The notes beneath the pieces are model-generated. The model had not been told where the DNA came from and did no database searches. It worked only from the letters and a program-made list of their open reading frames with translations. A stretch of 64,000 nt of DNA, from assembly GCF_000014145.1 (NCBI RefSeq), contig NC_008255.1:2806001-2870000 (forward strand). The letters run 5' to 3'. This stretch comes from Cytophaga hutchinsonii ATCC 33406 (lineage in GTDB: Bacteria > Bacteroidota > Bacteroidia > Cytophagales > Cytophagaceae). Both the position numbers and the translations under genes were made by a program. Shown in pieces: positions 8,260-51,560 of this stretch (within the stretch, counting starts at the first letter, position 1; the number at the start of each line of letters is the position of its first letter).

Positions 8260-8817
8260 ATGTCGCAGCAATTTCCGGACTGGCAACCGCAAGGCCTTGA
8301 AAACAATCTCTTAAAACTTGTACCGCTTGCTAAAGCTGATTTTGACACGTTGTTCGAAGTCGCTTCTGATCCGCTGATATGGGAGCAGCATCCAACCAAA
8401 GACCGCTATAAAAAAGAGGTTTTTCAGCTTTTCTTTGATGGTGCATTGGGAGGAAACACAGCCTTTATAATCATAGATAAAGCAACCGGAAGAATCATCG
8501 GATCTACCCGTTATTACGATTATAAACCGGAGCAGGCGAGCATAGCCATCGGTTATACGTTTTTGAACAGGGACTACTGGGGTGGCAGATATAACAGGAG
8601 TGCAAAAAAACTGTTACTTGATTATGCCTTTCACTATGTTGATACGGTTTATTTTCACATTGGTGCAAACAACCTGCGTTCACAAAAAGCAATTCTGAAT
8701 ATTGGCGCAACCAAAGTAGGTGAAGTAGATTTCGACTATTATGGAAAAAAAGTACTGCATTATGAATATGCAATTACCAAGGCAGATTGGCTACATACAC
8801 TGAAACAGCAGCTATAA
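8260..8817 (+). CDS. GNAT-family N-acetyltransferase (RimJ/RimL-like)
   Basis: 185 residues with the GNAT layout: N-terminal L-V-P-L-A-K-A-D-F-D-T-L, central strand I-I-G-S-T-R-Y-Y, acetyl-CoA-binding region G-Y-T-F-L-N-R-D-Y-W-G-G-R-Y-N and the C-terminal N-L-R-S-Q-K-A-I-L-N-I-G-A-T-K-V-G. This is the RimJ/RimL type that modifies alpha-amino groups of proteins or small amines. Substrate unknown. Followed after 3 bases by a small gene, so likely co-transcribed. Confidence 0.87.
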   Translation: MSQQFPDWQPQGLENNLLKLVPLAKADFDTLFEVASDPLIWEQHPTKDRYKKEVFQLFFDGALGGNTAFIIIDKATGRIIGSTRYYDYKPEQASIAIGYTFLNRDYWGGRYNRSAKKLLLDYAFHYVDTVYFHIGANNLRSQKAILNIGATKVGEVDFDYYGKKVLHYEYAITKADWLHTLKQQL

Positions 8818-8820
8818 ATC

Positions 8821-9174
8821 ATGTCGGATAAACCTTTATATGCCTATCACTGCCGGCCCGGCTATGGTTCTGAAAATTTACTTATTGAATTCATCCGTGG
8901 TACGGAAACATCCACATTTACAACAGATGTATTAGATGCGCTGCAAGAGATTCTGCCGACAGTAGCTGGACTTGAAGACCTGTGGATGAATGATGAGATT
9001 ATTTACTCCATAAATTCTGTTTTTGGATCATTCACCTTATCTAAAGATATCTGGGATTTTGCATTTATTATGGCCGATATGAATCAGCCTTGTATTGTCA
9101 GAATCGATGCTATCCTGCTTGCAGATAAACGGTTCGAAAAAATCAATGTAAATTTTGATGATTATAAAACATAA
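8821..9174 (+). CDS. Small conserved-looking protein of unknown function
   Basis: 117 residues, soluble, no signal peptide. It begins 3 bases after the acetyltransferase stop codon. Aromatic- and acid-rich with an alternating strand/helix pattern; no recognised motif. Good codon use and tight spacing support a real gene. Confidence 0.65.
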   Translation: MSDKPLYAYHCRPGYGSENLLIEFIRGTETSTFTTDVLDALQEILPTVAGLEDLWMNDEIIYSINSVFGSFTLSKDIWDFAFIMADMNQPCIVRIDAILLADKRFEKINVNFDDYKT

Positions 9175-9225
9175 CAATTTATGTAGTCATTATATTTTAC
9201 ACATGAACTGCAGATGTTTCTGAAC

Positions 9226-9852
9226 TCAAAATGTTTTTGTCTTAATTACCTTTCCTTTTTTATTATAATACTGCCAGCAGCCCACCGGTACATCTTTTTC
9301 CATCTTGCCTGCAGCAGATAAGATTCCGTTGTTGTATAATTTTGCCGGACCGTTTAATACACCATTTACATATGTGTACTCTTCGGTTATAACACCTGCT
9401 TCTGAATAAAATACCCATACACCATTTGGTGTTCCATTCACATACGGTCCAACAGATTTCAATTTTCCGTTTTCATGGTAACTGTGCCACACACCTTTGT
9501 ACATGCCAAATGCATATACACCTGCACGCTTCAGGTTTCCATTGCTGTAGTAATACCAGGCACTATCCTGCTCCATGCCCCGCTTCCACTGTTCTTTCGC
9601 TACCACATGATTAAGTGTATCGTAATACCAGGAAGTACCATCAAGCATATCACTCTTATATTGTTCCCGTGCAGATAAGTTTCCATTGGGATAATAATAA
9701 AACCAATTTCCTTCTCGTAACCCTTCCTGTTTTATTCCTTTTGATTTCAGTTTTCCATTAGAATAAAATTCTTTAAGCGTATCGCTACTTTGCGCACTAA
9801 CCGGCAGGAGTGTGTACATAAAAAAGATTGTTACAGATAGTTTTTTTATCAT
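9226..9852 (-). CDS. Secreted MORN-variant (YwqK-type) repeat protein, 208 aa
   Basis: Signal peptide (MIKKLSVTIFFMYTLLPVSAQ), then about seven repeats of roughly 23 residues built on the pattern W-x-Y-Y-x-x-N-G-x-L-K-x-x-G-x-Y-x-x-G-x-x-x-G. This is the MORN-variant repeat that databases label YwqK antitoxin; the label comes from a Bacillus toxin pair and need not apply here. Likely an extracytoplasmic beta-repeat protein. It lies 2 bases downstream of a larger protein with the same repeats, so they form an operon and arose by duplication. Confidence 0.85.
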   Translation of the reverse strand: MIKKLSVTIFFMYTLLPVSAQSSDTLKEFYSNGKLKSKGIKQEGLREGNWFYYYPNGNLSAREQYKSDMLDGTSWYYDTLNHVVAKEQWKRGMEQDSAWYYYSNGNLKRAGVYAFGMYKGVWHSYHENGKLKSVGPYVNGTPNGVWVFYSEAGVITEEYTYVNGVLNGPAKLYNNGILSAAGKMEKDVPVGCWQYYNKKGKVIKTKTF

Positions 9853-9854
9853 AA

Positions 9855-11930
9855 TTATTCTTCCTCTTCTTCGTCTATATCCATGTTCTGAATACGAACG
9901 AGTTTTCCCTGATCATAGTATTTCCAGATACCGGAAATCTCATCGTCGGTATATGCTCCTTCAGCCTCCAGCAAGCCGGCTTCTGTGTAGAAGCGCCAGT
10001 GTCCCTGACGCATGCCTTCCACATAATCTCCATCGCCGGATAAAAAACCATTGTTGTGATAATACTTCCATTTACCATCCGGCAATCCGTTTTTAAAATT
10101 ACCTTCGGCAGAAAGTTTTGTATTGTAATGATAACTTTTCAGTATGCCATTTCCATCTTTAAATGAACCTTTAGACAGCTTTGCGCCTGCCATAGATGTG
10201 ATGTCGCTTACTGCAACAAGGCGTCCCCTTTCATATGTTTCTTCATCCATCAGCAAACTATTGCTCCAGTAATTTTTCCATTTGCCATCTTCCAGTCCGT
10301 CTACATAACTTCCTTCAGAAGCAAGTTTACCATTTGAATGGTATTCTTTCCAAACACCTGTTTCTTTGCCCATCACAAAAGCCCCTTCCAGATTTACTCT
10401 TCCTGTTTCAAAATAAATTTTCCATGGTCCGTCTTCATATCCCTGTACAAAATTCCCTTCCATGGAAACCTTTCCATTAGCGTGGTAGCTTTTCCAAAGA
10501 CCTTCTTTCATGCCGTCCACATAATATCCTTCTGTTGTTTTTAAGCCTGTCGGGTAATAATCAATCCAGAGGCCATCCGGTTTACCATTCTTATATGAAC
10601 CTCTGGAAGCTAAGGTATCATTGTCATAATGTTCCAGCCATTCGCCTTCTTTATTCCCATTTACATAATAACCTTCGCTGAATACTTTTCCGTTTGCATG
10701 AAATTCAAACCACACGCTATCTTCAAGTCCTTTTTTATAAAAACCATATACTGATACGGTGCCATCTTTTCTAAACTGCTTGAAAGCTCCTTCTTCCACT
10801 CCCTTCTCATACGTTGTAATAGCTGCCAGTGTACCTGTTGAATAATACTCACGCATTACAGCTTCCTGTACCCCATCCACATAAAATATTTCTGCTTTAA
10901 TAAATCCGTTTTCATAATAGCTTGTTGCCAAGCCATTCTCCAGGCCATTTTCAAAAGGAATATCCATCAACAATGCGCCTTTCGGATAATAAATATTCCG
11001 CGAACCTTTTCCATCTTTCAAGGTACCGGCATCTAGCGACACACCCGCTTCGGTATATGCTTCCGGCGCAGACTGTAATTTGCCCATGCTCCATTGCTCT
11101 ACGCTCTGCTTTGAACCTGTTTGATTATCGTAATAGTATGTCCAGGTGCCATCAGGCTCGCCTTGGTTGTAAGTACCCGAAAATGTTTTAACACCTGACT
11201 CTGCATATTCTTCAAACAACCCGTTTTCTAAACTATCGGTGTAATATGAACGTGTTTCAAGTTTGCCGGATGCGTAATAATGTTTCCATTCTCCATTCAT
11301 ATTGCCTTTTGCATATGAACCCATGATCTTTGGTTTGCCTGTTGAATAGTTCCAGAATACCGTTCCTTCAATTTTACCATTTACGTATTGTGCTTTGTGA
11401 TATACCGCACCATTCGCATAATATTCCTTCCATTCTGCGATGCGTGACCCATTGGCATATACGCCATCAATTTTTATTTGCCCGTTTGGGTAATATTCTT
11501 TCCATGAACCGTCTTTCGCATCCAGTTTGTATGTACCCTCAATAGAGATTTTCCCATTGGCATAAAATTCTTTATACGTTCCGTTGCGTTTACCATCGAT
11601 AAATGCAGCATCAACCGACTGCTGCCCGTTGTTGTAAAATTCTTTCCATGCTCCTTCTTCTCTTCCGTTTACATAATTTCCCTGTAGTGCAACTTTACCG
11701 TTCGGATGGTACGTAACCACACTTCCATTGAATTTATTTGCTGTATAGTTTTCTTCTGCTTCAATTTTACCGGAAGAATAATAGGATTTCCATAAACCAT
11801 CCCGCTTACCATTGAGCAGATTTCCTTCAGCCTTTACGGTTTTACTATTCGCATAGTATTCTTTTGTCTGCTGTGCCTGAAGTAAAAAACTAAAAAACAG
11901 GAATAGAACTACAGATAAATATCGATACAT
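9855..11930 (-). CDS. Large secreted MORN-variant repeat protein, 691 aa
   Basis: Signal peptide (MYRYLSVVLFLFFSFLLQAQ) followed by about 28 repeats of about 23 residues with the core N-G-K-x-x-x-E-G-x-Y-x-x-G-x-x-x-G-x-W-K-x-Y-Y, ending in an acidic tail (DIDEEEEE). The repeats should stack into one long beta structure. No catalytic domain is visible. The exported location and length suggest a surface or periplasmic scaffold; function unknown. First gene of a two-gene operon, divergent from the barrel gene at 12.2 kb. Confidence 0.85.
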   Translation of the reverse strand: MYRYLSVVLFLFFSFLLQAQQTKEYYANSKTVKAEGNLLNGKRDGLWKSYYSSGKIEAEENYTANKFNGSVVTYHPNGKVALQGNYVNGREEGAWKEFYNNGQQSVDAAFIDGKRNGTYKEFYANGKISIEGTYKLDAKDGSWKEYYPNGQIKIDGVYANGSRIAEWKEYYANGAVYHKAQYVNGKIEGTVFWNYSTGKPKIMGSYAKGNMNGEWKHYYASGKLETRSYYTDSLENGLFEEYAESGVKTFSGTYNQGEPDGTWTYYYDNQTGSKQSVEQWSMGKLQSAPEAYTEAGVSLDAGTLKDGKGSRNIYYPKGALLMDIPFENGLENGLATSYYENGFIKAEIFYVDGVQEAVMREYYSTGTLAAITTYEKGVEEGAFKQFRKDGTVSVYGFYKKGLEDSVWFEFHANGKVFSEGYYVNGNKEGEWLEHYDNDTLASRGSYKNGKPDGLWIDYYPTGLKTTEGYYVDGMKEGLWKSYHANGKVSMEGNFVQGYEDGPWKIYFETGRVNLEGAFVMGKETGVWKEYHSNGKLASEGSYVDGLEDGKWKNYWSNSLLMDEETYERGRLVAVSDITSMAGAKLSKGSFKDGNGILKSYHYNTKLSAEGNFKNGLPDGKWKYYHNNGFLSGDGDYVEGMRQGHWRFYTEAGLLEAEGAYTDDEISGIWKYYDQGKLVRIQNMDIDEEEEE

Positions 11931-39492: not shown

Positions 39493-39544
39493 TAAATCTG
39501 ATAGTGTATGGAAACAGGTTTATTGGTGATTTATAAAAAATTTC
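39493..39544 (+). pseudogene. 3' remnant of a second copy of the YwqK-like cassette
   Basis: About 51 bases are identical to 48040-48090, including the codons for the last residues KSDSVWKQVYW and the stop. The homology continues through the following attC element. The body of that cassette is gone, so the array's left edge is a deletion scar. Just before it, AGGCTTCTTTGATAA (39481-39495) matches the left arm of the family B attC sites, suggesting a mosaic junction. Confidence 0.75.
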
Positions 39545-39733
39545 TGGTAACAATACCTACAATTTATAGCGGTTCGTTGGTCAGTAAACACTAGTACCCT
39601 TGCCTGCTCCGCCAAATTCCTGCGGAATTCTGATGGTAAAATAGAATATGATTTCCGCAGCAATTTGTTTACGCTGTTCCGTTAAACTTCTTATCTTTAA
39701 ATACCGCTACAAATTGCATGTTAACCGTTAGTG
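39545..39733 (+). repeat. attC-like element 1 (family A)
   Basis: About 189 bp. Left box TGGTAAC, right box GTTAGTG. Inverted arms CAATTTATAGCGG and CCGCTACAAATTG (12 of 13 pairs), and an inner hairpin CTGCGGAA/TTCCGCAG. Closely similar to the elements at 45648 and 48092. Confidence 0.75.
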
Positions 39734-39835
39734 GCAATTTTACTGACCGACACACTCCGACAAAAAAAAATGCGACTTTTGTCCCCGTTCTGAAATTCAA
39801 ATCGTCATTAGGACGAACAATAAAATTTTAAAAGA

Positions 39836-40180
39836 ATGAAAGAATTTGCGTTAATTTTCAGACTGAAAAACATTACTGACTTCAAACCATCACCTGAACA
39901 AATGCAGGAACGAATGAATTGGTTAGCGGGCATCGCCTCACAAAACAAGTTAGTGGACAAAGGCAATACACTTTTACCCATTCCAGGAAGTGCGAAAACC
40001 GTAAAGCCTAACAATGTGGTAACGGACGGACCTTACACCGAAATCAAAGAATTTATAAGCGGTTATGTTATTGTAAAAGCTGAAACAATTGACGAAGCAG
40101 TGGAAATTGCTAAAGCCAATCCGATTTTTGACCAAGTCGGAGGAAACATCGAAGTTCGTGAAGTTTTAAAACGTGACTAA
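39836..40180 (+). CDS. DGPF/YCII-domain protein (partner of ECF42 sigma factor)
   Basis: 114 residues with the YCII-related DGPF motif as TDGPYTEIKEFISGY (about residues 62-76), followed by D-E-A-V-E-I-A-K-A-N-P. DGPF proteins are regularly encoded next to ECF42 sigma factors and are thought to act with them; the mechanism is not known. The sigma gene follows after 2 bases. Both lie in the first intact cassette of the array. Confidence 0.9.
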   Translation: MKEFALIFRLKNITDFKPSPEQMQERMNWLAGIASQNKLVDKGNTLLPIPGSAKTVKPNNVVTDGPYTEIKEFISGYVIVKAETIDEAVEIAKANPIFDQVGGNIEVREVLKRD

Positions 40181-40182
40181 TA

Positions 40183-41433
40183 TTGGACGAAACGAAATCA
40201 CATAACGAACTTTTACCTCACTTATTCCGACAGGAATACGCTAAAATGACGGCTGTTTTATGCCGTCATTTTGGTTTAAAGCATATTGAAATTGCAGAAG
40301 ACATAGCAAGTGAAACTTTTCTGAAAGCATCCGAAAATTGGGCAATCAACGGAATACCTGAAAACCCGACAGCGTGGCTTTACGCAGTTGCCAAAAACAA
40401 GACCAAAGATTATTTCAAACACATTTCCGTTTTTGAAACGCAAATCAAAGAAGCAATAAAACCAAATGAAATTGAAACTGAAAAAGATTTTGAGTTTAGT
40501 AGTCAAAACATTTCAGACAGTCAGTTGGCAATAATTTTTGCGGTTTGTAATCCAAGCAATTCAACGGAAAGTCAAATTTGTTTGGCACTTCAAATTCTTT
40601 GCGGTTTCAGCGTGGAAGAAATCGCCAACGCTTTTCTTACAAAACCTGAAACCATTAAAAAACGCTTGCAAAGAGCCAGAACCAATCTTCGTAACGACAA
40701 TTTTAAAATCAAAACATTAGGCGAAACAGAAATCAAATCAAGATTAAACACCGTTTTAAAAACTTTATACTTGCTGTTTAACGAAGGTTATTTTTCCAAA
40801 ACCAATCATCAGTTAATCAGAAAAGAACTTTGTTCGGAAGCTGTAAGACTAACTTTAATCCTGACAGAAAACAATTACACCAACATACCGCAAACAAACG
40901 CATTACTTTCCTTAATGTGTTTTCAAAGCTCACGGCTTGAAGCAAGAACAAACGACAAAGGCGAAGCCATTTTGTTTGACGAACAGGACAAAAGTTTGTG
41001 GGACAAAACGCTGATTGAAAAAGGGAATTACTATTTGGTAAATGCCTGCAACGGAATCGAAATTTCAAAATATCATTTGGAAGCAGGCATCGCTTATTGG
41101 CATACTACACCGACAGACCAGAACAAATGGCAACACATTTTACAGCTTTATAATCAACTTGTTCTTATTGAGTATTCGCCCATAACAGCATTAAACAGGA
41201 CATTTGCATTTGCCAAAGTTTACGGACATAACCAAGCAGTATCCGAAGCCGAAAAACTAAAACTGACAGGCAACAACTATTATCACGAATTGTTAGGTTA
41301 CTTGTATGCTGATACAGACATTGACAAAGCAATTTCACATTACGAACAGGCAATCGGACTAATAAAATCCAAGACAGAAAAACAAACGCTGACAAAAGAA
41401 ATTGAACGGCTGAAAGAAAAAAACAGCAGGTAA
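40183..41433 (+). CDS. ECF42-type RNA polymerase sigma factor with C-terminal TPR-like extension
   Basis: 416 residues from a TTG start 2 bases after the DGPF gene; an ATG at 40246 would remove part of region 2. Sigma region 2 (ETFLKASENWAINGIPENPTAWLYAVAKNKTKDYFK) and region 4 (LQILCGFSVEEIANAFLTKPETIKKRLQRARTNLR) are clear. A long C-terminal extension of about 230 residues with TPR-like helices (SPITALNRTFAFAKVYG, ELLGYLYADTDIDKAISHYEQAI) marks the ECF42 group. Its stop codon lies inside the left box of the next attC element. A two-gene regulatory pair is unusual cargo for a cassette. Confidence 0.88.
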   Translation: MDETKSHNELLPHLFRQEYAKMTAVLCRHFGLKHIEIAEDIASETFLKASENWAINGIPENPTAWLYAVAKNKTKDYFKHISVFETQIKEAIKPNEIETEKDFEFSSQNISDSQLAIIFAVCNPSNSTESQICLALQILCGFSVEEIANAFLTKPETIKKRLQRARTNLRNDNFKIKTLGETEIKSRLNTVLKTLYLLFNEGYFSKTNHQLIRKELCSEAVRLTLILTENNYTNIPQTNALLSLMCFQSSRLEARTNDKGEAILFDEQDKSLWDKTLIEKGNYYLVNACNGIEISKYHLEAGIAYWHTTPTDQNKWQHILQLYNQLVLIEYSPITALNRTFAFAKVYGHNQAVSEAEKLKLTGNNYYHELLGYLYADTDIDKAISHYEQAIGLIKSKTEKQTLTKEIERLKEKNSR

Positions 41434-41576
41434 CATCGGTTTTGCGTAATGGCGAGTTAAGTGTAATTTAGCCAACGATAAAAAAAGCATTGGCTACGGT
41501 AGTGCTGAATTGAACATTTGTGCTTCGATTTCCGCCACTTCGCAAAGCCGCGGACCGGTAGGTGCAACCGTTGTGA
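41428..41576 (+). repeat. attC-like element 2 (single type)
   Basis: About 149 bp. Left box AGGTAAC overlaps the sigma gene's stop; right box GTTGTGA. Arms TTTTGCGTAATGGCG and CGCCACTTCGCAAAG pair with few mismatches, and an inner hairpin TAGCCAA/TTGGCTA is present. Box sequences are less standard than in the other elements. Confidence 0.55.
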
Positions 41577-41641
41577 ATCCAAAAGTGCAGCATTACGATA
41601 TTTTAAGACAGTCTTTATAATACAACTTAAACCCAAGCAAA

Positions 41642-41977
41642 ATGAAAACATTATTCAAATCTATTCTTCTGACAAGTATTTTATTTCTTAGTATTTTAAA
41701 TAATTTACAAGCTCAGAATAAGTATGACTATGCAATGGTTACATATAGATTTAAAGATAAAATAGTTGAAGTTGATATAAATGGTGAGGTATATACTAAA
41801 ATTGATGTAGATGTAAAAGAAAATGGCAACTCGTATTACCTTGTTTCACCGGCATTAAAACAAGTAAAAAAAATGAATAATGAAGGTTGGGAATTATTTG
41901 ATACAGCAATAACAGAACCTAATGGAGGGTATTCAATTTATCTTCTATTTAAGAAAAAAAGCAGATTGACAATTTAG
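41642..41977 (+). CDS. Cassette gene: small secreted protein
   Basis: 111 residues with a signal peptide (KTLFKSILLTSILFLSILNNLQAQ). The end K-M-N-N-E-G-W-E-L-F-D-T-A resembles the DUF4177-type E-G-W-E-L motif, but the match is short. Function unknown. The 200 bases after it, up to the next attC, hold no supported gene. Confidence 0.68.
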   Translation: MKTLFKSILLTSILFLSILNNLQAQNKYDYAMVTYRFKDKIVEVDINGEVYTKIDVDVKENGNSYYLVSPALKQVKKMNNEGWELFDTAITEPNGGYSIYLLFKKKSRLTI

Positions 41978-42179
41978 AATTTCCACTTTGTTTACATTGA
42001 ATAATCACACTAAACATTTTGGCAAATGGATTTTCGATTTGGTGTTGTGAGTAAATTGGATTTGCAGTTAATCCAGATTTAAATAGTAAACATAATAATA
42101 ACTAAAAAATATGGACTGCAATAAATATGATAATCAATAAAAATAAATGGCTTTTAAATAAGCATTCATATACGCCAGC

Positions 42180-42354
42180 ACCTAACAATAGGTAGCATTT
42201 ATTGTAGGCTTGTTTGATAATATTAATAGCGGTGCTTTCATCCGCCGCGGCGGACCGCACACAATAATTAAATTTAAAAGGTTGTGCGGGTTTGGAGTCA
42301 AGGAAATCTTGGCGCTTTCAAGGCCTACAACAAATGTAACCAGAAACGTTATAG
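42180..42354 (+). repeat. attC-like element 3 (family B)
   Basis: 175 bp. Left box ACCTAAC (fits RYYYAAC), right box GTTATAG. Arms GCATTTATTGTAGGC and GCCTACAACAAATG are complementary with one mismatch; centre has the palindrome TCCGCCGCGGCGGA and a CCGCACA/TGTGCGG hairpin. Confidence 0.8.
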
Positions 42355-42362
42355 CCAATTTT

Positions 42363-43094
42363 ATGAAGACAGCTAAATCAACGATAATTTTGACTTTGAT
42401 TATTTTCATTGTAATGACTTTGTTGACAATGAAACATGAAGCAATCTCGGATGGTATTGATACTTATGGTTTTCCATATATCTTCTATGAGCATTTTGAA
42501 GGCAAATGTGATAATTGCTATGATGATTTTGGTTTTAAACCTAGATTTTTATTTACAGATTTTTCATTAGCCTTATTATTATCATATTGTGTTATTTGGA
42601 TTAAGAATAAATTTTCAAAAAGTGAAATGCTAACACAAGACAATAATTACGTTAAAGTATTATTTCGTTTTCATAGTAACGTCTTGGACGAAGAAACAGT
42701 CGAGACAATGTGGGCGACAATAGTTGATAAAGAAAAAGGATTTTACAAACTTGACAGCATTCCATTTTATGCACCATATGTTGCATCAGACGATATTGTA
42801 TTTGCAGAGTTTGACGATCAAGAACAAATGCTAACATACCGCAAGACCGTTGGATATTCGGGCAACTCAACAGTTCAAATTGTGTTAATTGACAAGTCAA
42901 AAGATATAAATCAAATCCGTGACTTATTCAAAGAACTTGGTTGTGTTTCAGAAAAAGTGAATGAAGGATATTTTGCAATGGAAATTCCTTCAACAGTCGA
43001 CTATAAAAATATAAAGAAGAAGTTAGTCGAGCTAGAAACACAAGAGACAATAGGATACGCAGAACCTTGTTTAGCTGACGGTCATAAACTCTGA
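42363..43094 (+). CDS. Cassette gene: membrane-anchored DUF4265 protein
   Basis: 243 residues from ATG 42363. The frame is open upstream to 42210 only because it crosses the attC element. An N-terminal membrane helix (TIILTLIIFIVMTLLTM) and a second one near residue 75 precede a DUF4265-like domain (VLFRFHSN, GFYKLDSIPFYAPYVASDDIVFAE). DUF4265 proteins are of unknown function, often in accessory regions. Cassette ends are complementary (GTTATAGCC and GGTTATAAC). Confidence 0.78.
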   Translation: MKTAKSTIILTLIIFIVMTLLTMKHEAISDGIDTYGFPYIFYEHFEGKCDNCYDDFGFKPRFLFTDFSLALLLSYCVIWIKNKFSKSEMLTQDNNYVKVLFRFHSNVLDEETVETMWATIVDKEKGFYKLDSIPFYAPYVASDDIVFAEFDDQEQMLTYRKTVGYSGNSTVQIVLIDKSKDINQIRDLFKELGCVSEKVNEGYFAMEIPSTVDYKNIKKKLVELETQETIGYAEPCLADGHKL

Positions 43095-43107
43095 GAATAA
43101 CAAATGG

Positions 43108-43280
43108 TTATAACAATAAGTAGCATTTATTGTAGGCTTCTTTGATAATAAGAATAGCGGCACTTTCATCCGCCGCGGCGGACCGCACAAAATAATTAAA
43201 TTAAAATGCATGCTGGTACAGTGTTAAGGAAATCTTGGCGCTTACAAGGCCTACAACAAATGCAACCACAACCGTTATAA
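43108..43280 (+). repeat. attC-like element 4 (family B)
   Basis: 173 bp. Left box TTATAAC, right box GTTATAA. Same arms and central TCCGCCGCGGCGGA palindrome as element 3. Its left box mirrors the start of its own cassette at 42348. Confidence 0.8.
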
Positions 43281-43302
43281 GCAACCTTAGGCACACAACA
43301 AC

Positions 43303-43971
43303 ATGGACAAGACACTTTCTTATTTTGTTTATAGCCCGCCAAAGTCAAATTCTCATGGACATGGTGTACGTGACAAAAACGTAAGACGAGCAACTCAAAG
43401 ATTAATTGACAGTTTTGTAAGCAGTTTTAAAGCTACAACCGACAACAGGCTTCAATTGACTTTAAGCCACGACAAGAACAACGAGTTGCAAAAGGCACGT
43501 AACACAATTGAGAAGCTAAACAATTTCTTAGGTACTGCAAAAAGAGAATGGGACAACGCAGGATTTGAGAAAATGGAAAATACAATGACCTGGGAAAATG
43601 AAAATGCAAATATTCTCGACCTATTAGATTACATAGACAAACTAAAGGACGACAGTTTTTTGCCTTTATCTAAATACTGGATTTCTTGTTTTTATCATTA
43701 CGGAAAAAGTCCAGAGCCATATGGACATATTATGTGTTCAATTGAATCGGGAAGGCTTTTTGTCAGACTGCATTTAATTATTCCTTATCCTATCGATAAT
43801 GATAAATGTTACGAGCTGATATACAAATTTCACAAATCCCTACCGTTTAAATTAAATGGCAATCATTTTAGACGACTTGGGCCGAGCAAAAGAGGCTATG
43901 GTCAATGGAAACTGGACGAAGAAACTCAAAATCGACTTAACGAATGTTTAATAAAATCGAAGATGAAATAA
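43303..43971 (+). CDS. Cassette gene: protein of unknown function, 222 aa
   Basis: Soluble protein without signal peptide. Helical N-terminal half (RRATQRLIDSFVSSFKA, NELQKARNTIEKLNNFLG) and a mixed C-terminal half (YGHIMCSIESGRLFVRLHLIIPYPI). No recognised family. Cassette ends are complementary over 11 of 12 bases (GTTATAAGCAAC at 43274 against GCTGCTTATAAC), which supports that the cassette is one unit. Confidence 0.7.
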   Translation: MDKTLSYFVYSPPKSNSHGHGVRDKNVRRATQRLIDSFVSSFKATTDNRLQLTLSHDKNNELQKARNTIEKLNNFLGTAKREWDNAGFEKMENTMTWENENANILDLLDYIDKLKDDSFLPLSKYWISCFYHYGKSPEPYGHIMCSIESGRLFVRLHLIIPYPIDNDKCYELIYKFHKSLPFKLNGNHFRRLGPSKRGYGQWKLDEETQNRLNECLIKSKMK

Positions 43972-43978
43972 AGGCTGC

Positions 43979-44110
43979 TTATAACAGCACAGTTGCAATA
44001 GGCGGGGTTTCGTGCTTCTTAGACAGCTTTGTGGTAACGAAAAGTTCAGTTCTCCAAATGAACTTTTATGCTAAAAATCCCGCCCATCGCAAATCTGCAA
44101 ACCGTTAGCG
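43979..44110 (+). repeat. attC-like element 5 (single type)
   Basis: 132 bp. Left box TTATAAC, right box GTTAGCG. Arms TTGCAATAGGCGGG and CCCGCCCATCGCAA pair with two mismatches; inner hairpin AAAGTTCA/TGAACTTT. Length is in the classic attC range. Confidence 0.75.
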
Positions 44111-44119
44111 TATATATTA

Positions 44120-44665
44120 ATGATGAAACATTTTCTTTTTATAATTTTGATTATCTGTACTCTTTCTTGCGAAAATAGGATAGAAAAAAATCATTCGTCA
44201 ATTTGTAAGTCAGATTCAACTAATGAGAATTGGTTAAATTTTAAATATGATAGTGTAATTACCTTTGCAACTATTGACCCTTTTTATAGAATTTTAAATA
44301 AAGGGAATTTGATTGATTTATCAGAAATAAATGATACAATTTCTGTTTCATTGTCAGAAAGACAAATTGAAACTTTAGATTCAATTATAAATGGTTTGAA
44401 AAATAAGCCTGGAAAAAAAATCTTTCCAGCCGATTGTTTTAATCCTAGACACAATATAATTTTTCTAAATAGGGACACTTTAGTCAATTATATTTCGGTT
44501 TGTTATGAATGCGGATATTATCGATCAAGTAAACCTAATATTAAAGGTGATTTAAATGCATTTAAAACTTTATTCGACAATTTAGGATTAAAGGTTTTTG
44601 ACAGGCCAGATTATCATAGCAAATACTATGACTCAATCATTCAAAAACGAAAATACATACGCTAA
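44120..44665 (+). CDS. Cassette gene: lipoprotein of unknown function
   Basis: 181 residues. Hydrophobic start and lipobox-like TLSC (Cys17), then a polar mature part (VSLSERQIETLDSIINGL, ISVCYECGYYRSS). Two adjacent ATGs at 44120 and 44123 can serve as start. The stop TAA is part of the left box of the next attC element. Cassette ends are complementary over 10 of 10 bases (GTTAGCGTAT and ATACGCTAAC). Confidence 0.72.
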   Translation: MMKHFLFIILIICTLSCENRIEKNHSSICKSDSTNENWLNFKYDSVITFATIDPFYRILNKGNLIDLSEINDTISVSLSERQIETLDSIINGLKNKPGKKIFPADCFNPRHNIIFLNRDTLVNYISVCYECGYYRSSKPNIKGDLNAFKTLFDNLGLKVFDRPDYHSKYYDSIIQKRKYIR

Positions 44666-44834
44666 CAATAAGTAGCATTTATTGTAGGCTTCTTTGATAA
44701 TAAGAATAGCGGTGCTTTCATCCGCCGCGGCGGACCGCACAAAATAATTAAATTTAAAAGGTTGTGCGGGTTCGGTGTTTAGGAAAGCGCAGCGCTTACA
44801 AGGCCTAAAACAAATGCAACCACAACCGTTATAG
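44660..44834 (+). repeat. attC-like element 6 (family B)
   Basis: 175 bp. Left box CGCTAAC (overlapping the stop codon of the preceding gene), right box GTTATAG. Arms and TCCGCCGCGGCGGA palindrome as in the other family B elements. Confidence 0.82.
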
Positions 44835-44844
44835 CCAATCAGGA

Positions 44845-45246
44845 ATGAAGTCATACAAAGCAATAAAGAGCATTAGTGATAGTTTATATCTTAACCTAAT
44901 AGATGAAACGGACATACAAAAAAGACTTCAGGATGCGGTGCACCAAGTTCATGTGCAGATATCTGAAGACTTCAAATGTTTATTTGGACAAGAATTGAAT
45001 CTAAAAGACTTTCATATCTATGTAGATGACGAGACCTATCGACAAAGTGCGACCGGATTAATCTTGAACGAGACAATTATTGATTATGAAGATTTAATAA
45101 TAAGAGTTGAATGCTTGATTGATCATGGAAGAATATTAATTACAGTAAGGAAAGGAGAAGGATTTTCAGACTTTGAAGATATGGTTTTTCGAATAGCGAG
45201 AGTTCAAAACTCTGAAGGATCTAGTGAATTAAGAGATATTATATAA
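44845..45246 (+). CDS. Cassette gene: protein of unknown function, 133 aa
   Basis: Soluble, acidic, no signal peptide; starts 11 bases after the attC element. Mixed helix/strand (SISDSLYLNLIDETDIQKRLQDAVHQVHVQ, LIIRVECLIDHGRILITVRKG). Family not recognised. The cassette continues for 400 bases beyond it with a broken reading frame. Cassette ends match in 9 of 10 bases (GTTATAGCCA and TGGCTACAAC). Confidence 0.68.
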   Translation: MKSYKAIKSISDSLYLNLIDETDIQKRLQDAVHQVHVQISEDFKCLFGQELNLKDFHIYVDDETYRQSATGLILNETIIDYEDLIIRVECLIDHGRILITVRKGEGFSDFEDMVFRIARVQNSEGSSELRDII

Positions 45247-45396
45247 TCAAAATGAAAATGAATTTAGTAGAAGCTGTAAAATAAAAATCAAGAGGATCTA
45301 AGCATTTGTCTCAATTTTGATAATTAAAAGGGAATCAATTATAGTCATTATGATTACATTGCGTAAGCTCTCAAAGCCACTTGGCACAGCTAATAT

Positions 45397-45642
45397 GAGG
45401 ACTTGGTTAATATTATTTATTTAGGAAGTTTCAGTGATGATCGATTCATAGAGCCAATTATCGAGATTGTTCTTTAAAAGGATATTTTTAGGTGGTATGA
45501 TGATGAGTTGGAATCTACATTAAGAAAATGTGTGCATGCTCTTAAAACAATTGATTCTGAAAAATCATTAATAACTTTTAAAAGACTTGAAAGTCTAAAC
45601 AATGACAATGTGAAATTCGTATTGGAGATGTATGGAAAATAG
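45397..45642 (+). pseudogene. Degenerate second gene in the 44.8-45.7 kb cassette
   Basis: One frame reads EDLVNIIYLGSFSDDRFIEPIIEIVL, a stop (TAA 45475-45477), then KDIFRWYDDELESTLRKCVHALKTIDSEKS and LESLNNDNVKFVLEMYGK to a stop at 45642. It looks like a helical HEAT-like protein interrupted by a nonsense codon and lacking a start. This suggests cassette decay. Confidence 0.55.
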
Positions 45643-45647
45643 ACTGG

Positions 45648-45831
45648 CTACAACAATACCTGCAATTTATAGCGGTTCGTTGGTCAGTAAACACTAGCCC
45701 CCTTCCCTACTCCTCCAAATTCCTGCGGAATCTGATGGTAAAATAGAATATGATTTCCGCAGCAATTTGTTTACGCTGTTCCGTTAAACTTATTATCTTT
45801 AACATATCGCTAACTATGTTAAACGTTACCA
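45648..45831 (+). repeat. attC-like element 7 (family A, altered right end)
   Basis: 184 bp. Left box CTACAAC, right box GTTACCA. Shares the CAATTTATAGCGG arm and CTGCGGAA/TTCCGCAG hairpin with elements 1 and 10, but its right arm is replaced by TATCGCTAACTATG, so outer pairing is weaker. Confidence 0.68.
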
Positions 45832-45842
45832 GCAAGCATAAG

Positions 45843-46391
45843 ATGATAAAATACACAAATATATCCTCGATTGACTATATAAATAATTTGCCATTTGACT
45901 ATGTTGAGATGTATTCATTTCAGCGAGGAACGGAGTTTGAAAAAAGTAATAAGACAAGTCAACAAGAATATGAGAAGTTAAAGATTAGAAAAGAAAAGCA
46001 TAATGATTTGACAATCCTCGAAGAAAAGCGTTTTTTTGAATTACAGCAACTTTTTGGGGTTACACAATATTTAGTCAATGACAAAGGACAATTTCATCCT
46101 TCCAGCACAAAAACAAACACTTTTAAAGCCACAGACCCTCAAATAAACATACTGAAAAATATCTTGAGGACTGAAATTAAGGACGTACCATCTTGGATGT
46201 GTGCTCCTATTTATCGTGATGCAATAGTTTTTTACGACAAATTGAACCAAATCATATCTACTTTAAATATCTGTTTAAGTTGTGAATATATGGAAACGAA
46301 AATGTTTTCCCGCATAAATGGAGACAATAAAACTTACGACTTATTAAGGCATTTTTTTATTGAACTAGGACACAAAATTGAAGACCGATAA
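45843..46391 (+). CDS. Cassette gene: protein of unknown function, 182 aa
   Basis: Start ATG 45843 is the first after the attC right box; the frame is open upstream only across the attC element. Soluble protein, Lys/Glu-rich helix (EYEKLKIRKEKHNDLTILEEKRFFELQQLFG), then SWMCAPIYRDAIVFYD and two cysteines (LNICLSCEYM). Family not recognised. Confidence 0.68.
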   Translation: MIKYTNISSIDYINNLPFDYVEMYSFQRGTEFEKSNKTSQQEYEKLKIRKEKHNDLTILEEKRFFELQQLFGVTQYLVNDKGQFHPSSTKTNTFKATDPQINILKNILRTEIKDVPSWMCAPIYRDAIVFYDKLNQIISTLNICLSCEYMETKMFSRINGDNKTYDLLRHFFIELGHKIEDR

Positions 46392-46399
46392 ATGCCAGT

Positions 46400-46531
46400 T
46401 GGTAACAGCTACTACAACGGATTGAGGTAATTGGTTTAATGAAAAAACGGTTTTGTATTTTTGATGATTTGGCAAATCCGAATAATGGCTTAATTTAGTA
46501 TCAAACCCGCTGTAGTACCAGAACGTTAGGT
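46400..46531 (+). repeat. attC-like element 8 (single type)
   Basis: 132 bp. Left box TGGTAAC, right box GTTAGGT (fits GTTRRRY). Arms ACTACAACGGATT and AAACCCGCTGTAGT pair with few mismatches; short inner hairpin GATTTGGCAAATC. Confidence 0.72.
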
Positions 46532-46573
46532 GTAGTACTACTAGTTAAAATCGAATCATTCAACATAATAAAT

Positions 46574-47110
46574 ATGGAACATTTTATTTTATCAATATTA
46601 ATATCTACATTAATTTTTATCATTATACCTCTATTGTGCGTCGGATTTGTTTTTTTTATTTTTAAGAAAAAGTTAGGACTAAAATTAGCCGTATTTGTAA
46701 GCGTCATTTTATTAATAATATTTAGCTTTTTTATTATTACAAACTTCTACCCTTTAGAATCATTTTATTCAAATAATTTTGAAGAAAATACAAAATTAAC
46801 TTTACCTGATTCTGCTAAACTAATTCGATATTCTGGGAACAATACGATTTATAGTTTTGGGGACTATAACATATCTTATATATATCAATTAGAGACAACA
46901 GATTATAATCATATATACTCTCAATTATTGACTAAGGGATTTCATAGTAGTGATGTGTATCTTGAAACATCTGAAAATGAATATTTAATAAATTCTCCCT
47001 TAAAATATAAGAGAAAGAAAATATTGACAAAAAATTTTGGATTTAAAAACTTTGATATTTTGTTTTTAATAGACAATAAAACAATAATTTGCAATTCAAA
47101 TAAATGGTAA
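46574..47110 (+). CDS. Cassette gene: small membrane protein
   Basis: 178 residues. Two N-terminal membrane helices (FILSILISTLIFIIIPLLCVGFVFFIF and LAVFVSVILLIIFSFFIITNF) and a polar extracytoplasmic domain of about 115 residues. AT-rich codon use. Family not recognised. Confidence 0.68.
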   Translation: MEHFILSILISTLIFIIIPLLCVGFVFFIFKKKLGLKLAVFVSVILLIIFSFFIITNFYPLESFYSNNFEENTKLTLPDSAKLIRYSGNNTIYSFGDYNISYIYQLETTDYNHIYSQLLTKGFHSSDVYLETSENEYLINSPLKYKRKKILTKNFGFKNFDILFLIDNKTIICNSNKW

Positions 47111-47120
47111 TGAATAATAA

Positions 47121-47284
47121 ACCTAAAAATGGACAACATTTATTTTAGGCTTTTTGATAATAGTAATAGCGTTACTTTTATCAGCCACGGCAGACCGCAC
47201 GAAGTAATTAAATAAAAATGTTGTGCGGGTTCTGAATCTTTGCGCTTTCAAGACCTACAACAAATGTTACCACAACCGTTACCA
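47121..47284 (+). repeat. attC-like element 9 (family B, decayed left box)
   Basis: 164 bp. The left box reads ACCTAAA instead of ending in AAC; the right box is GTTACCA. The central palindrome is also altered (AGCCACGGCAGA). It is the most diverged family B copy and is probably a poor recombination site. Confidence 0.65.
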
Positions 47285-47293
47285 GAAACTTTA

Positions 47294-48076
47294 ATGAGAT
47301 ATCGACTAATAATCATATTGACTTTTTTAACTATAAAATCCTATGGGCAATGTGGGCAAGAATATCCATCAGGGTTTTGTCATAGTTCAATATTTGTAAC
47401 TCATCAAGGAGATACGCTCAATAAACTTGATAATTTAGGATTTTATCAAGGCCTTCATTTATATACTTATAGTAGTGACAGCAATACATTTATTATTGGA
47501 AACTACCGTCACGGACAACCTGTAGGAGAATGGAAATATCATTGTAGTGATAGTTCGTACTCATTTGGGCAATTTAAGAGTGGTATACAATCAACTTCAG
47601 ATGGTAACGGAGGCTGGGTTACTAAGAAACAAGGTATCTATTCAAAAGATGGAGTTTGGAAATACTTTGACAAAGACAGCCAATTAATCAAAACTCAACG
47701 TTTCGAACATTTTGATTATAAAAATGGATGGGCAAAAAAGATTTTTATAGTAGACACTAACGGTACTTTCATTTTAGTCAATTTTGAAAGTAAATATAAA
47801 TATTATTCAAAATTTAGAAAGGAAACAACAATCCATTACACCGAGGATGGAATAATTTTATCAGCTGAATATAATAGTTTTTGGAGGGATGTCACTCTTG
47901 AATATTATAATAATAGTCAGGTAAGTAAAAAGACTAAAAGAAGAAAGTTTTTAGGTAAAGCATTAAATAAAACAATTGAAAAAGAATATAATTATAAAGG
48001 ACAATTAGAAAATAAGATAAAGACAACTTGGCATAATCGTAAATCTGATAGTGTATGGAAACAGGTTTATTGGTGA
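47294..48076 (+). CDS. Cassette gene: secreted YwqK-like repeat protein
   Basis: 260 residues from ATG 47294 (signal peptide RYRLIIILTFLTIKSYGQ). Contains MORN-variant elements (GNYRHGQPVGEWKYH, GIYSKDGVWKYFDKDSQLIKTQRF), as in the chromosomal pair at 9.2-11.9 kb but with fewer repeats. Its last 12 codons recur at the array's left edge. Cassette ends are complementary over 8 bases (GTTACCAG and CTGGTAAC). Confidence 0.75.
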   Translation: MRYRLIIILTFLTIKSYGQCGQEYPSGFCHSSIFVTHQGDTLNKLDNLGFYQGLHLYTYSSDSNTFIIGNYRHGQPVGEWKYHCSDSSYSFGQFKSGIQSTSDGNGGWVTKKQGIYSKDGVWKYFDKDSQLIKTQRFEHFDYKNGWAKKIFIVDTNGTFILVNFESKYKYYSKFRKETTIHYTEDGIILSAEYNSFWRDVTLEYYNNSQVSKKTKRRKFLGKALNKTIEKEYNYKGQLENKIKTTWHNRKSDSVWKQVYW

Positions 48077-48091
48077 TTTATAAAAAATTGC

Positions 48092-48282
48092 TGGTAACAA
48101 TCCATAAAATTTATAGCGGTTCGTTTGGCAGGAAACACTTGAGCTCTTCCCTACTCCTCCAAATTCCTGCGGAAATCTGATGCTTAAAAAGAATATAATT
48201 TTCCGCAGCAATTTGTTTACGCTGTTCCGTTAAAGTTCTTATCTTTAAATACCGCTACAAATTGCATTGTTAACCGTTAGGC
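48092..48282 (+). repeat. attC-like element 10 (family A)
   Basis: 191 bp. Left box TGGTAAC, right box GTTAGGC (fits GTTRRRY). Arms AAATTTATAGCGG/CCGCTACAAATT and hairpin CTGCGGAA/TTCCGCAG. Near-copy of element 1, including the upstream gene tail. Confidence 0.77.
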
Positions 48283-48293
48283 ACAATTTTAAA

Positions 48294-49697
48294 ATGAAAA
48301 ATACGACCTTGTTACTTTTTATTTTTGCTATTATTTCTTTTTCCATTTATGGACAGAATGAAAATTTATTATCTATTCAACAGCAATTAAATGATATTGA
48401 TGAATTAGAGCAAAAATTAAAAACTATTCACCCTTCACTTTATAGATTTTGTACTCCAATGGAATTTGATAGCACTTTAAGTGCTATCAAAAAAGGAATA
48501 TACAAAACAAATACAGAGAAAGAATTTTCAGTATTAATATCTCCTATCTTTTTATTAATCAAAGATGCACATACTTGGCAACAATTACCCAATCGTGAAG
48601 AATCAAATACGTTAATACCTTTAGATTTTAAAATTTATAAAAATCAATTGTTTGTTTATAACAACTGTAGCTATAATAATGAATTATCCCCAGGAACAAG
48701 AATTTTAGAAATAAACAATGAAAAATCAGAGGAAATTATAACACGATTAAAAGCATCTGTTGTAACCGATGGATTTATTGAAACTACAAAAGAGAGAGTT
48801 GCAGAAGAATGGTTCAAGTACATATTTCAACCTCAAAATCAGTATTCAATTAAATACCAAAGTAAGAATAAATCAAAAATAGTTGAATTAGAACCATTAA
48901 CTGAACATTTAATTGATTCAATAAGAACAAATCGAACAGAAAACAAAATTCACTTAAAACCAGAACCTTTTAATATAGGTCCATATACAAAGTTATCGAT
49001 TAACAAACGTGATAACTATGGAACTATTAAAATCAAATGGTTTGATAGGGTCCCTTTTACAGAATACAAAAGTTTTTTGGATTCAAGTATTCATAATTTA
49101 AATACAAGACAAATAACTAATCTCATAATTGATCTACGCTGGAATATAGGAGGACCTAGAGAGTACCCAATTTATTTACTTTCCAAGATATTGAATCAAC
49201 CCTTTCGGTATTGCGATTCTTTAATTACGACAAAATTTACTTTTGAAGAAAAAATAGCTTTTGATTCTACAAAAGTTTTTGTTCCAATGGACAATGGATT
49301 CTACAAAGTTGTTAAAAATGCCAGAGGATTAGGGCAGCAAAATCCATCAAATGTAACTTTCACTGGAAATATATACTTGTTAGTAGATGGACAATCAAAC
49401 TCGTCTTCTGCTCAAGTAGCATCCCTAATTTATCAAAATCGAAGAGGAACAATTATTGGAGAAGAGCCAGGTGGCTTATTTGAAGGTGGAACAGGAGAAC
49501 ATCATTATTATTTAACGTTAACAAACTCTAGAATTAAAGTTCAGATTCCACGATATCGAATAGTATTGCATGTAGACAGGTCAAAATTTCATGGACACGG
49601 GGTTAAACCCGATTATGAGGTGAAACCAGATATTACTGATATGATTCAAGGAAAAGATCCTGTAATGGAATTTACAATTGGATTAATAAAAAAATAA
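48294..49697 (+). CDS. Cassette gene: S41-family peptidase (C-terminal processing protease-like)
   Basis: 467 residues from ATG 48294 (signal peptide KNTTLLLFIFAIISFSIYGQ). An N-terminal helical region, a PDZ-like part (PGTRILEINNEKSEEII) and the S41 core: LIIDLRWNIGGP, then GQSNSSSAQVASLIYQNRRGTIIGEEPGG with the Ser nucleophile in S-S-S-A-Q. Probably a periplasmic serine peptidase. It is the largest cassette gene and an unusual cargo. Cassette ends are complementary over 10 bases (GTTAGGCACA and TGTGCCTAAC). Confidence 0.88.
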   Translation: MKNTTLLLFIFAIISFSIYGQNENLLSIQQQLNDIDELEQKLKTIHPSLYRFCTPMEFDSTLSAIKKGIYKTNTEKEFSVLISPIFLLIKDAHTWQQLPNREESNTLIPLDFKIYKNQLFVYNNCSYNNELSPGTRILEINNEKSEEIITRLKASVVTDGFIETTKERVAEEWFKYIFQPQNQYSIKYQSKNKSKIVELEPLTEHLIDSIRTNRTENKIHLKPEPFNIGPYTKLSINKRDNYGTIKIKWFDRVPFTEYKSFLDSSIHNLNTRQITNLIIDLRWNIGGPREYPIYLLSKILNQPFRYCDSLITTKFTFEEKIAFDSTKVFVPMDNGFYKVVKNARGLGQQNPSNVTFTGNIYLLVDGQSNSSSAQVASLIYQNRRGTIIGEEPGGLFEGGTGEHHYYLTLTNSRIKVQIPRYRIVLHVDRSKFHGHGVKPDYEVKPDITDMIQGKDPVMEFTIGLIKK

Positions 49698-49704
49698 AAC
49701 ATGT

Positions 49705-49879
49705 GCCTAACAATAAGTAGCATTTATTGTAGGCTTCTTTGATAATATTAATAGCGGTGCTTTCATCCGCCACGGCGGACCGCACGAAATAATTAAATGG
49801 AAAAGGTTGTGCGGGTTTTGTGTTTAGGATATCTAGGCACTTTCAAGGCCTACAACAAATGCAACCGCTACCGTTACCT
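49705..49879 (+). repeat. attC-like element 11 (family B), last of the array
   Basis: 175 bp. Left box GCCTAAC (fits RYYYAAC), right box GTTACCT. Family B arms with central TCCGCCACGGCGGA. No attC matching its right box was found downstream, so the array seems to end here or the following cassette has lost its attC. Confidence 0.8.
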
Positions 49880-49903: not shown

Positions 49904-50470
49904 ATGAAAATTATAACCGCTATAAATGAAGATGAATGGGCTTCAATAACACATATTGCAACTACAGTCCATTTGAAGAAAGATCAACTAATCATTCGAA
50001 AAGGCGACCCTGGCAACAAGGAAGTTTTTTTGGTAAATGGAATCGTTAGAGGCTTTATTACAGATGAAAATGGTAATGAGAAAAGTACGTCCTTTTTTGA
50101 AGAAGGAGAGTTTATGAGCACGCAGGCACTTAGAACTAAAAAAGGTATTTCCCTTTATAATTACCAAGCTTTGTGTCGTACAAAGTTATTGATATTCGAC
50201 TCAAAACAATTGAAGGACTTACTATCTGCAACCAAAAAATTATCTGAAATAGGTAAAGCAATAAAAGAAAGAGAACTGACCAGACTTATGAACAGAGATG
50301 ATTGTTTGATGCAAGTAAAAGCCCTTGACAAATACCAGAAATTCATTACGTATTATCCCGCTTTAGAAAGGCAGATTTCTCAACGCTATATAGCCTCGTA
50401 CTTAGGCATCACCCCTGTTTCGCTCAGTCGCTTAAAAAAATCAATGATTGTACGAACTGATAACAATTGA
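49904..50470 (+). CDS. Crp/Fnr-family transcription regulator
   Basis: 188 residues. Cyclic-nucleotide-binding-like domain (VHLKKDQLIIRKGDPGNKEVFLVNGIVRGFITDENGNEKSTSFFEEGEFMS) and C-terminal winged helix (QISQRYIASYLGITPVSLSRLKKS). The helix-turn-helix is short, as in Bacteroidota members. Lies between the last attC and a membrane-protein gene, which it probably regulates. It may be the last cassette or the first flanking gene. Confidence 0.88.
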   Translation: MKIITAINEDEWASITHIATTVHLKKDQLIIRKGDPGNKEVFLVNGIVRGFITDENGNEKSTSFFEEGEFMSTQALRTKKGISLYNYQALCRTKLLIFDSKQLKDLLSATKKLSEIGKAIKERELTRLMNRDDCLMQVKALDKYQKFITYYPALERQISQRYIASYLGITPVSLSRLKKSMIVRTDNN

Positions 50471-51139: not shown

Positions 51140-51437
51140 TTCACCGTGGTCTGTTTCACCGTGTTCTGTGGCACACAGAACACCAGGGGTAAAATGAATT
51201 AAAAAAGAATTTATTCATGTGTTAGATATATTACTTATTAGGTTGAAGTGATAGTAATTATTAACTTGATGCAGCAGTGACTTTCACCGTGTTCTGTGGC
51301 ACACAGAACACCAAGGGTAAAATGAGTTAAAAAAGAATTTATTCATGTGTTAGATATATTACTTATTAGGTTGAAGTGATAGTAATTATTAACTTGATGC
51401 AACAGTGAATGGTCTGTGTGCCACAGACCACGGTGAA
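51140..51437. repeat. 298-bp element with inverted ends and a 128-bp tandem duplication
   Basis: TTCACCGTGGTCTG (51140-51153) is the exact reverse complement of CAGACCACGGTGAA (51424-51437). Inside, 51154-51281 and 51282-51408 are two copies of a 128-bp unit with only a few differences. Each unit starts with the palindrome GTGTTCTGTG-GC-ACACAGAACAC. A related palindrome GGTCTGTG-TGC-CACAGACC closes the element, and a diverged relative lies at 3093-3111. No gene is inside. Confidence 0.75.
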
Positions 51438-51560
51438 TGTATGTTAGACATTGCACTACATCAGGCGGAGTTTACGCCGGACGATATTTCTCGTCTTCCT
51501 ATTTGTTCATAGCTTTCAACATGGTACCTTCGTCTAATAAATAACTCATCATTCTCTTCC

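Follow-up and report, generated by a model that had tools for sequence, protein, structure and literature searches.

The complete 4.43-Mb single-contig genome of Cytophaga hutchinsonii ATCC 33406 carries a run of codirectional genes separated by long hairpin-forming elements, which raises the question of what kind of mobile system assembled it. The window analyzed here is a 64-kb stretch of that genome (G000:C1:2806001-2870000), and plain coordinates below are positions within it. At 39545-49879 the window holds 11 elements resembling attC, the recombination sites of integron cassettes, all on the plus strand and arranged in tandem between codirectional genes. No integrase gene lies within the 64 kb, and the locus is therefore a cluster of attC sites lacking an integrase (CALIN). 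We conclude that the array very probably represents the cassettes of a Bacteroidia-type integron, run by a clade of recombinases separate from the canonical integron integrase (IntI), and that this platform has decayed here to a remnant 1.33 Mb away.

The anatomy of the array agrees largely with a preliminary description of this DNA, which had reported eleven elements of attC layout at this place, several of them 164-191 bp long. Eight of the 11 fall in that range and the other three measure 132-136 bp, so that lengths span 132-191 bp overall (site coordinates are AAC...GTT spans plus 4-nt flanks). In each element, outer boxes resembling RYYYAAC and GTTRRRY enclose long inner arms, complementary to each other, around a variable middle. 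The earlier statement that the boxes are close to this consensus holds overall and fails at two sites with damaged boxes (GGT for GTT at 41557 and AAA for AAC at 47125). Site sequences form at least two families (1 and 2) plus unrelated single ones. AT-rich genes reading in one direction had also been described, and indeed the GC content is 0.33 in the array vs 0.40 across the remaining window, and all main open reading frames (ORFs) between the attC sites are on the plus strand. Where a boundary is intact, the distance from GTT to the gene start is 15-49 bp, and 12-20 bp separate the gene end from AAC. The cassettes range from 0.56 to 1.7 kb, with one attC each.

An attC covariance model (R1), built from 27 sites of other genera only, found nine of the 11 elements on the plus strand (E 1.5e-21 to 0.05), and across the whole window nothing else scored better than E 1.1. 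An Rfam search of the window gave no match. Integration of cassette circles at G^TT predicts complementarity between the two ends of a cassette: the bases just 3' of its opening GTT should pair with those just 5' of its closing AAC, and these two boxes come from different sites. For the window cassettes, 59 of 70 such bases match, a value that 0 of 200,000 permutations reached, whereas the two boxes within one site match at only 30 of 77. In nine of the 10 cassettes, 5-7 of the 7 positions match. At other loci, the ends match at 166 of 231 bases, compared with a permutation maximum of 112. Bottom-strand folding gave z values of -0.8 to -5.1. Among 50 sites, 11 of them from the window, the pairing energy between arms is -16.7 kcal/mol for true partners vs -8.4 kcal/mol when partners are swapped across loci (p 7e-24).

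Matching cassette ends and paired arms are signatures of integron cassettes, not of miniature inverted-repeat transposable elements (MITEs) or repetitive extragenic palindromic (REP) sequences. If the elements were interspersed repeats of these kinds, or terminators, their resemblance to cassette boundaries would be accidental. Such repeats can be abundant, and several copies here do share sequence, as seen in families 1 and 2. However, the ends match within a cassette rather than within a site, unrelated sequence families have the same box geometry, the copies lie between codirectional genes, and junctions on plasmids described below fall exactly at GTT. Unless sites have been mis-assigned, the permutation test refutes this explanation, and we consider it extremely unlikely.

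Identifying the elements as attC leaves the question of the enzyme. The complete genome encodes no canonical IntI: nothing scores above the TIGR02249 cut-off, and the best matches are XerC and XerD, both of which are intact. The integrase-less state proposed in the preliminary description is thus borne out, and a genome-wide search revealed a decayed recombinase remnant with attI at 1.514 Mb. That description had also placed sdhCAB where an intI gene would be expected. The array does sit behind sdhCAB, but the position carries no meaning because no array adjoins sdhB in two other Cytophaga genomes (C. aurantiaca and a third one). We rejected sdhCAB as an ancestral integron neighbor on the same evidence.

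The remnant is a 45-amino-acid recombinase fragment at G000:C1:1514271 that reads LEAGTDLSCIQQLPGHSSSKTTEVYT...KSPLNDLSI*. Its relative in C. aurantiaca (DSM 3654, scaffold NZ_KB903630.1) is an intact recombinase of 473 amino acids, followed by a conserved sequence of ~70 bp, one cassette, and an attC that belongs to window family 1 (85% identical). The ~70 bp after the C. hutchinsonii fragment are nearly identical to the C. aurantiaca DNA 3' of the integrase gene, up to TTTACTA followed by GTTRGYTGC, where the similarity stops. A stray phage-integrase fragment was considered for the match at 1514271 and set aside, since this comparison points to a decayed integrase and then attI. The remnant at ~1.514 Mb is the C-terminal part of a decayed recombinase with its attI. 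Farther downstream, three attC-like sites with damaged boxes, one of them scoring E 8e-19, follow it on the same strand, together with a homolog of window cassette 2 (tblastn 35%). This second, decayed integron, with integrase remnant, attI and three damaged attC sites, spans L061:2534-9771 (G000:C1 ~1.507-1.514 Mb, minus strand). Two separate loci thus remain in the genome, the decayed platform at 1.5 Mb and the array of the window at 2.85 Mb. The scattering of copies unrelated to cassette boundaries that the preliminary description had contemplated was not seen. Other copies in the genome make up the second array downstream of the dead integrase, except for one possible site at 1.68 Mb. That single further match (E 3e-6; G000:C1:1682907-1683036, minus strand) lies near another Crp/Fnr gene.

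Intact relatives of the remnant have a tyrosine recombinase core of the RKHRHY type (Pfam PF00589, E 3.7e-43) with R, HxxR, H, and Y conserved in A1/A4. Their closest tyrosine recombinases are canonical IntI (TIGR02249; 2a3v, VchIntIA) and archaeal XerA. They align to XerA and to both halves of VchIntIA, skipping 2a3v residues 187-245. In NCBIfam they score 191-202 bits against TIGR02249, below its 265-bit cut-off and with profile positions ~180-238 unmatched, and they fall just under the cut-off of NF040815. The catalytic Arg-HxxR spacing is 89-91 amino acids in nearly all of ~60 homologs. Five IntI proteins (IntI1, one resembling IntI3, and three from the same phylum) have a spacing of 131, and Xer proteins one of 94-96. 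The short spacing and the alignment gap together indicate that the additional domain of IntI, ~42 residues around patch III, is absent. In a maximum-likelihood tree, in which some references are partial PDB-derived sequences, these recombinases (100/98), IntI (100/99), and Xer form three well-supported clades, with the recombinases outside the IntI clade. The recombinases often carry an N-terminal extension of about 50-270 amino acids, for which Pfam gave no match. In C. aurantiaca, AlphaFold models this extension as two similar alpha/beta repeats, with no significant match in the PDB. A resemblance to HARP domains was considered and dropped because neither a Pfam match nor a significant fold match was obtained.

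Four integrases used as queries against named genomes gave 69 loci, almost all from Bacteroidota. Arrays occur on the downstream side of the integrase in Cesiribacter, Winogradskyella, Pedobacter, Flavobacterium, Saprospiraceae, and others. Sites in these arrays are mostly 119-146 bp long and spaced 0.3-4 kb apart. Almost none occur upstream of the integrase at these loci, and almost none in shuffled sequence. The integrase is usually codirectional with the cassettes. At many loci an inverted repeat of the type TATATACGC...GCGTATA follows its stop codon and ends about 8-12 nt before the GTT of the first cassette, and we interpret this repeat as attI. Integrase, adjoining attI, and attC array occur together at L064, L066, L072, L076, L081, L123, and other loci.

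An even sampling of 73 Bacteroidia genomes (attC threshold E <= 1e-5; integrase counted as a strong match) found the recombinase in 41, attC in 55, and both in 39 (odds ratio 19.5, p 9e-6). Canonical IntI was present in a single one of these genomes, and that one has no attC match. These counts bear on the possibility that the window array is an ordinary CALIN whose cassettes were inserted by a canonical IntI that has since disappeared, with the atypical recombinases as bystanders. CALINs are frequent, and other classes of the same GTDB phylum do contain canonical IntI (85 of 296 genomes). However, attC accompanies the atypical recombinase in 39 of 41 genomes, and in many orders this recombinase stands directly before attI and array, which makes a lost canonical IntI very unlikely. 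Because canonical IntI occurs in those other classes, we limit our claim to the class Bacteroidia and have dropped a phylum-wide association between integrase and attC (296 genomes, odds ratio 15.5). The atypical recombinase is thus far a candidate for the cognate enzyme of these arrays, apparently widespread in the class.

In the genome search, no more than 11 candidate sites were scored for any one genome, which makes its site counts lower bounds. Of the 43 sites listed across the phylum at no more than 25 kb from an integrase, 35 follow it on the same strand, seven lie upstream on the opposite strand, and one fits neither pattern. An array on the integrase's other side and on the opposite strand, as in classical integrons, is seen in G020, G025, G056, G064, G214, and G254.

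Host XerC and XerD have been proposed to move the pdif modules of Acinetobacter plasmids, and both proteins are intact in C. hutchinsonii. They are very unlikely to be responsible for the array: its sites are long hairpins with AAC/GTT boxes rather than 28-bp dif-like sites, and the attI-like repeats follow another recombinase, whose clade is separate from Xer. Some loci carry a further gene of interest. A gene for single-stranded DNA-binding protein (SSB) directly follows the integrase at L115:10874-11212 and, by sequence, also at L085, L087, L089, L090, L095, L101, and L117. The integrons concerned are of the Saprospiraceae/Cytophagales type. SSB unfolds attC sites in known integrons, and IntI opposes this effect (PMC8946536).

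Sites of this type also bound resistance genes on plasmids. The fifth site of the window (attC 5, 43979-44110) shares 87% identity over 125 bp with an attC of array L115, from another Bacteroidota genome, and is similar to DNA that flanks tet(X2) and aadS in plasmids of Bacteroidota. A model made from chromosomal sites detects an attC at either end of tet(X2), aadS, and blaOXA-347 (E 1e-13 to 1e-22), and each of the three cassettes has ends that agree over 10 consecutive bases (Bacteroidota plasmids, L136:5976-7436; L137:5976-7138 and 8579-10099; L153:5794-7316). The start of the tet(X) cassette, GTTATGTGCCATTTTTG, follows three different partners. For tet(X2) these are two different attC sites, one in Sphingobacterium and the other in Bacteroides/Empedobacter. 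On Acinetobacter plasmids carrying tet(X3), the partner is an attI-type inverted repeat that lies behind tpnF/xerD and stops at the GTT of the tet(X) cassette (L133:4016-4890; L134:2967-3822). Conversely, one attC precedes tet(X2) in one plasmid and aadS in another, and the attC of tet(X2) itself precedes two different cassettes. All of these partner changes fall exactly at GTT and so constitute natural junctions. TnpF, the product of the gene before tet(X3), nests in the Bacteroidota integrase clade. A separate observation concerns an Escherichia coli plasmid (L152:4140-4200), where a tet(X4) cassette is cut inside an attC box (CGGCACATAA) less than 400 bp from ISVsa3, an element of the ISCR2 type.

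Taken together, a Bacteroidia-type integron very probably produced the window array, and the process would have run as follows. Each cassette would once have been a circle carrying one attC, whose bottom strand would fold into a long hairpin. A recombinase of the atypical clade would cut at G^TT and join attC to attI or to another attC, and replication would resolve the joined product. The array may then have been displaced from its platform by rearrangement, or may have formed by integration in trans.

Several points weigh against this interpretation. With the Infernal filters off, only the three sites of ~132-136 bp remain strong (E 3e-22, 6e-14, and 2e-5), and the long sites are split or weak in the full-model search. 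The case for the long sites is therefore carried by cassette-end complementarity, repeat identity, and arm pairing. Cassette 1 (39727-41432) is the only cassette whose ends do not match (3 of 7), and it is probably fused or rearranged. Among the 55 attC-positive Bacteroidia genomes, 16 have no strong integrase match, C. hutchinsonii included, and seven of the 43 listed cases show the array upstream of the integrase and on the opposite strand. Finally, PMC9668308, citing Messier and Roy (2001), describes the additional domain as found only in IntI and required for its activity, so the absence of this domain here needs explaining.

On balance, we think it likely that Bacteroidia hold a phylogenetically separate and widespread integron lineage. 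Its recombinases would use folded attC sites without the additional domain, possibly helped by the N-terminal extension and, in some lineages, by SSB. The same lineage would be the native platform for the spread of tet(X), aadS, and blaOXA-347.

Much of this system is familiar from known integrons and CALINs. The cassettes are codirectional and carry one attC each, the sites have RYYYAAC/GTTRRRY boxes and fold into hairpins, cassette ends are complementary with a crossover at G^TT, and attI lies beside the integrase gene. Unlike in those systems, the Bacteroidia integrase falls outside the IntI clade, lacks the additional domain, and usually reads in the direction of the cassettes with attI at its 3' end. 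Its Arg-HxxR spacing (89-91 vs 131) and its N-terminal extension further separate it from canonical IntI, which is missing from nearly all sampled Bacteroidia. The attC sites are mostly ~132 bp long and reach 191 bp in Cytophaga, and matching ends extend over 10 bp vs 7 bp. Reverse-orientation and archaeal integrons (Spirochaetota, Archaea) likewise place attI immediately 3' of the integrase gene, but their IntI proteins have the additional domain (PMC9668308). The tet(X3) region with tpnF/xerD and ISCR2 shares a product in the Bacteroidia clade, an attI-type repeat, and the tet(X) cassette start. In contrast, the accounts of this region in PMC7722449 and PMC7530245 describe ISCR2-driven transfer and, in the parts searched, mention neither attC nor an integron for tet(X).

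Surveys have found integrons to be nearly absent from true Bacteroidetes, with Salinibacter as the sole complete case (PMC9024848). Similarly, Chryseobacterium isolates with blaOXA-347, tetX, and aadS were reported in 2025 to have no integrons by IntegronFinder 2.0.5 (PMC12382657). We found no earlier description of Bacteroidia integrons with an atypical integrase in open-access papers. From their sequences, these appear to be widespread but overlooked integrons. About three quarters of the sampled Bacteroidia genomes have attC, now with a candidate integrase. Two sets of questions thereby become testable: the origin of integron integrases from Xer-type recombinases together with the purpose of the additional domain, and the first mobilization of tet(X) and other resistance genes in Bacteroidota.

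The individual features of the array, all on the plus strand, begin with the residual 3' end of a cassette at 39493-39545. This ORF tail and spacer is homologous to 48040-48092 (direct repeat D4, 88%), which includes the tail of ORF 47240-48076. Site attC 1 (39545-39733, 189 bp, family 2) was found by the model at E 0.05 and shows arm pairing. Cassette 1 encodes a YCII-domain protein and an ECF sigma factor/DUF6596 protein. It is followed by attC 2 (41428-41563, 136 bp, E 2.7e-13), whose GTT is mutated to GGT. A right end for this site at GTT 41570 was rejected, since cassette ends then do not match, whereas the covariance match puts the end at 41557 (GGT), where they do. Cassette 2 (41557-42184, ends 6/7) encodes a small exported protein and precedes attC 3 (42180-42354, 175 bp, family 1, E 7.5e-6). 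The product of cassette 3 (42348-43112, ends 6/7) is a DUF4265 protein (Pfam E 1.5e-31), and attC 4 (43108-43280, 173 bp, family 1, E 2e-4) comes next. Cassette 4 (43274-43983, ends 7/7) encodes a 222-amino-acid protein without assigned function. Between it and cassette 5 (44104-44664, ends 7/7), which encodes a lipoprotein-like protein of 181 amino acids, is attC 5 (132 bp, E 1.5e-21).

Beyond attC 6 (44660-44834, 175 bp, family 1, E 3e-3), cassette 6 (44828-45652, ends 6/7) combines a gene for a protein without assigned function with ~400 bp of non-coding or decayed DNA. The model missed attC 7 (45648-45831, 184 bp, family 2), which has a divergent right arm and belongs to repeat families D5/D7. 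Cassette 7 (45825-46404, ends 5/7), for a protein without assigned function, and cassette 8 (46525-47125, ends 6/7), for a membrane protein likewise without one, are separated by attC 8 (46400-46531, 132 bp, E 8e-5). Also missed by the model was attC 9 (47121-47284, 164 bp, family 1, AAC mutated to AAA), which is recognized through repeats D1/D3. Cassette 9 (47278-48096, ends 6/7) encodes an exported protein without assigned function and is followed by attC 10 (48092-48282, 191 bp, family 2, E 3e-3). Cassette 10 (48276-49709) encodes an S41-family peptidase (Pfam E 1.5e-17), and its ends match at 7 of 7 positions, or 10 consecutive bases with GTT. The last site is attC 11 (49705-49879, 175 bp, family 1, E 6e-5).

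A gene for a Crp/Fnr-type regulator (49904-50470, plus strand) starts 31 bp past the last GTT. It may be a cassette gene that lost its attC, as similar genes lie inside arrays L045 and L115. Regulators of this type recur inside or at the end of arrays (L045:14711-15238, L115:13078-13620, and the window gene). Farther downstream, an inverted repeat at 51259-51449 passes a crude attC scan but was rejected as a further site, being tandemly repeated and without matching ends. The surrounding DNA at 51140-51450 is a tandem duplication of ~120 bp that contains the inverted repeat CACCGTGTTCTGTGGCACACAG.

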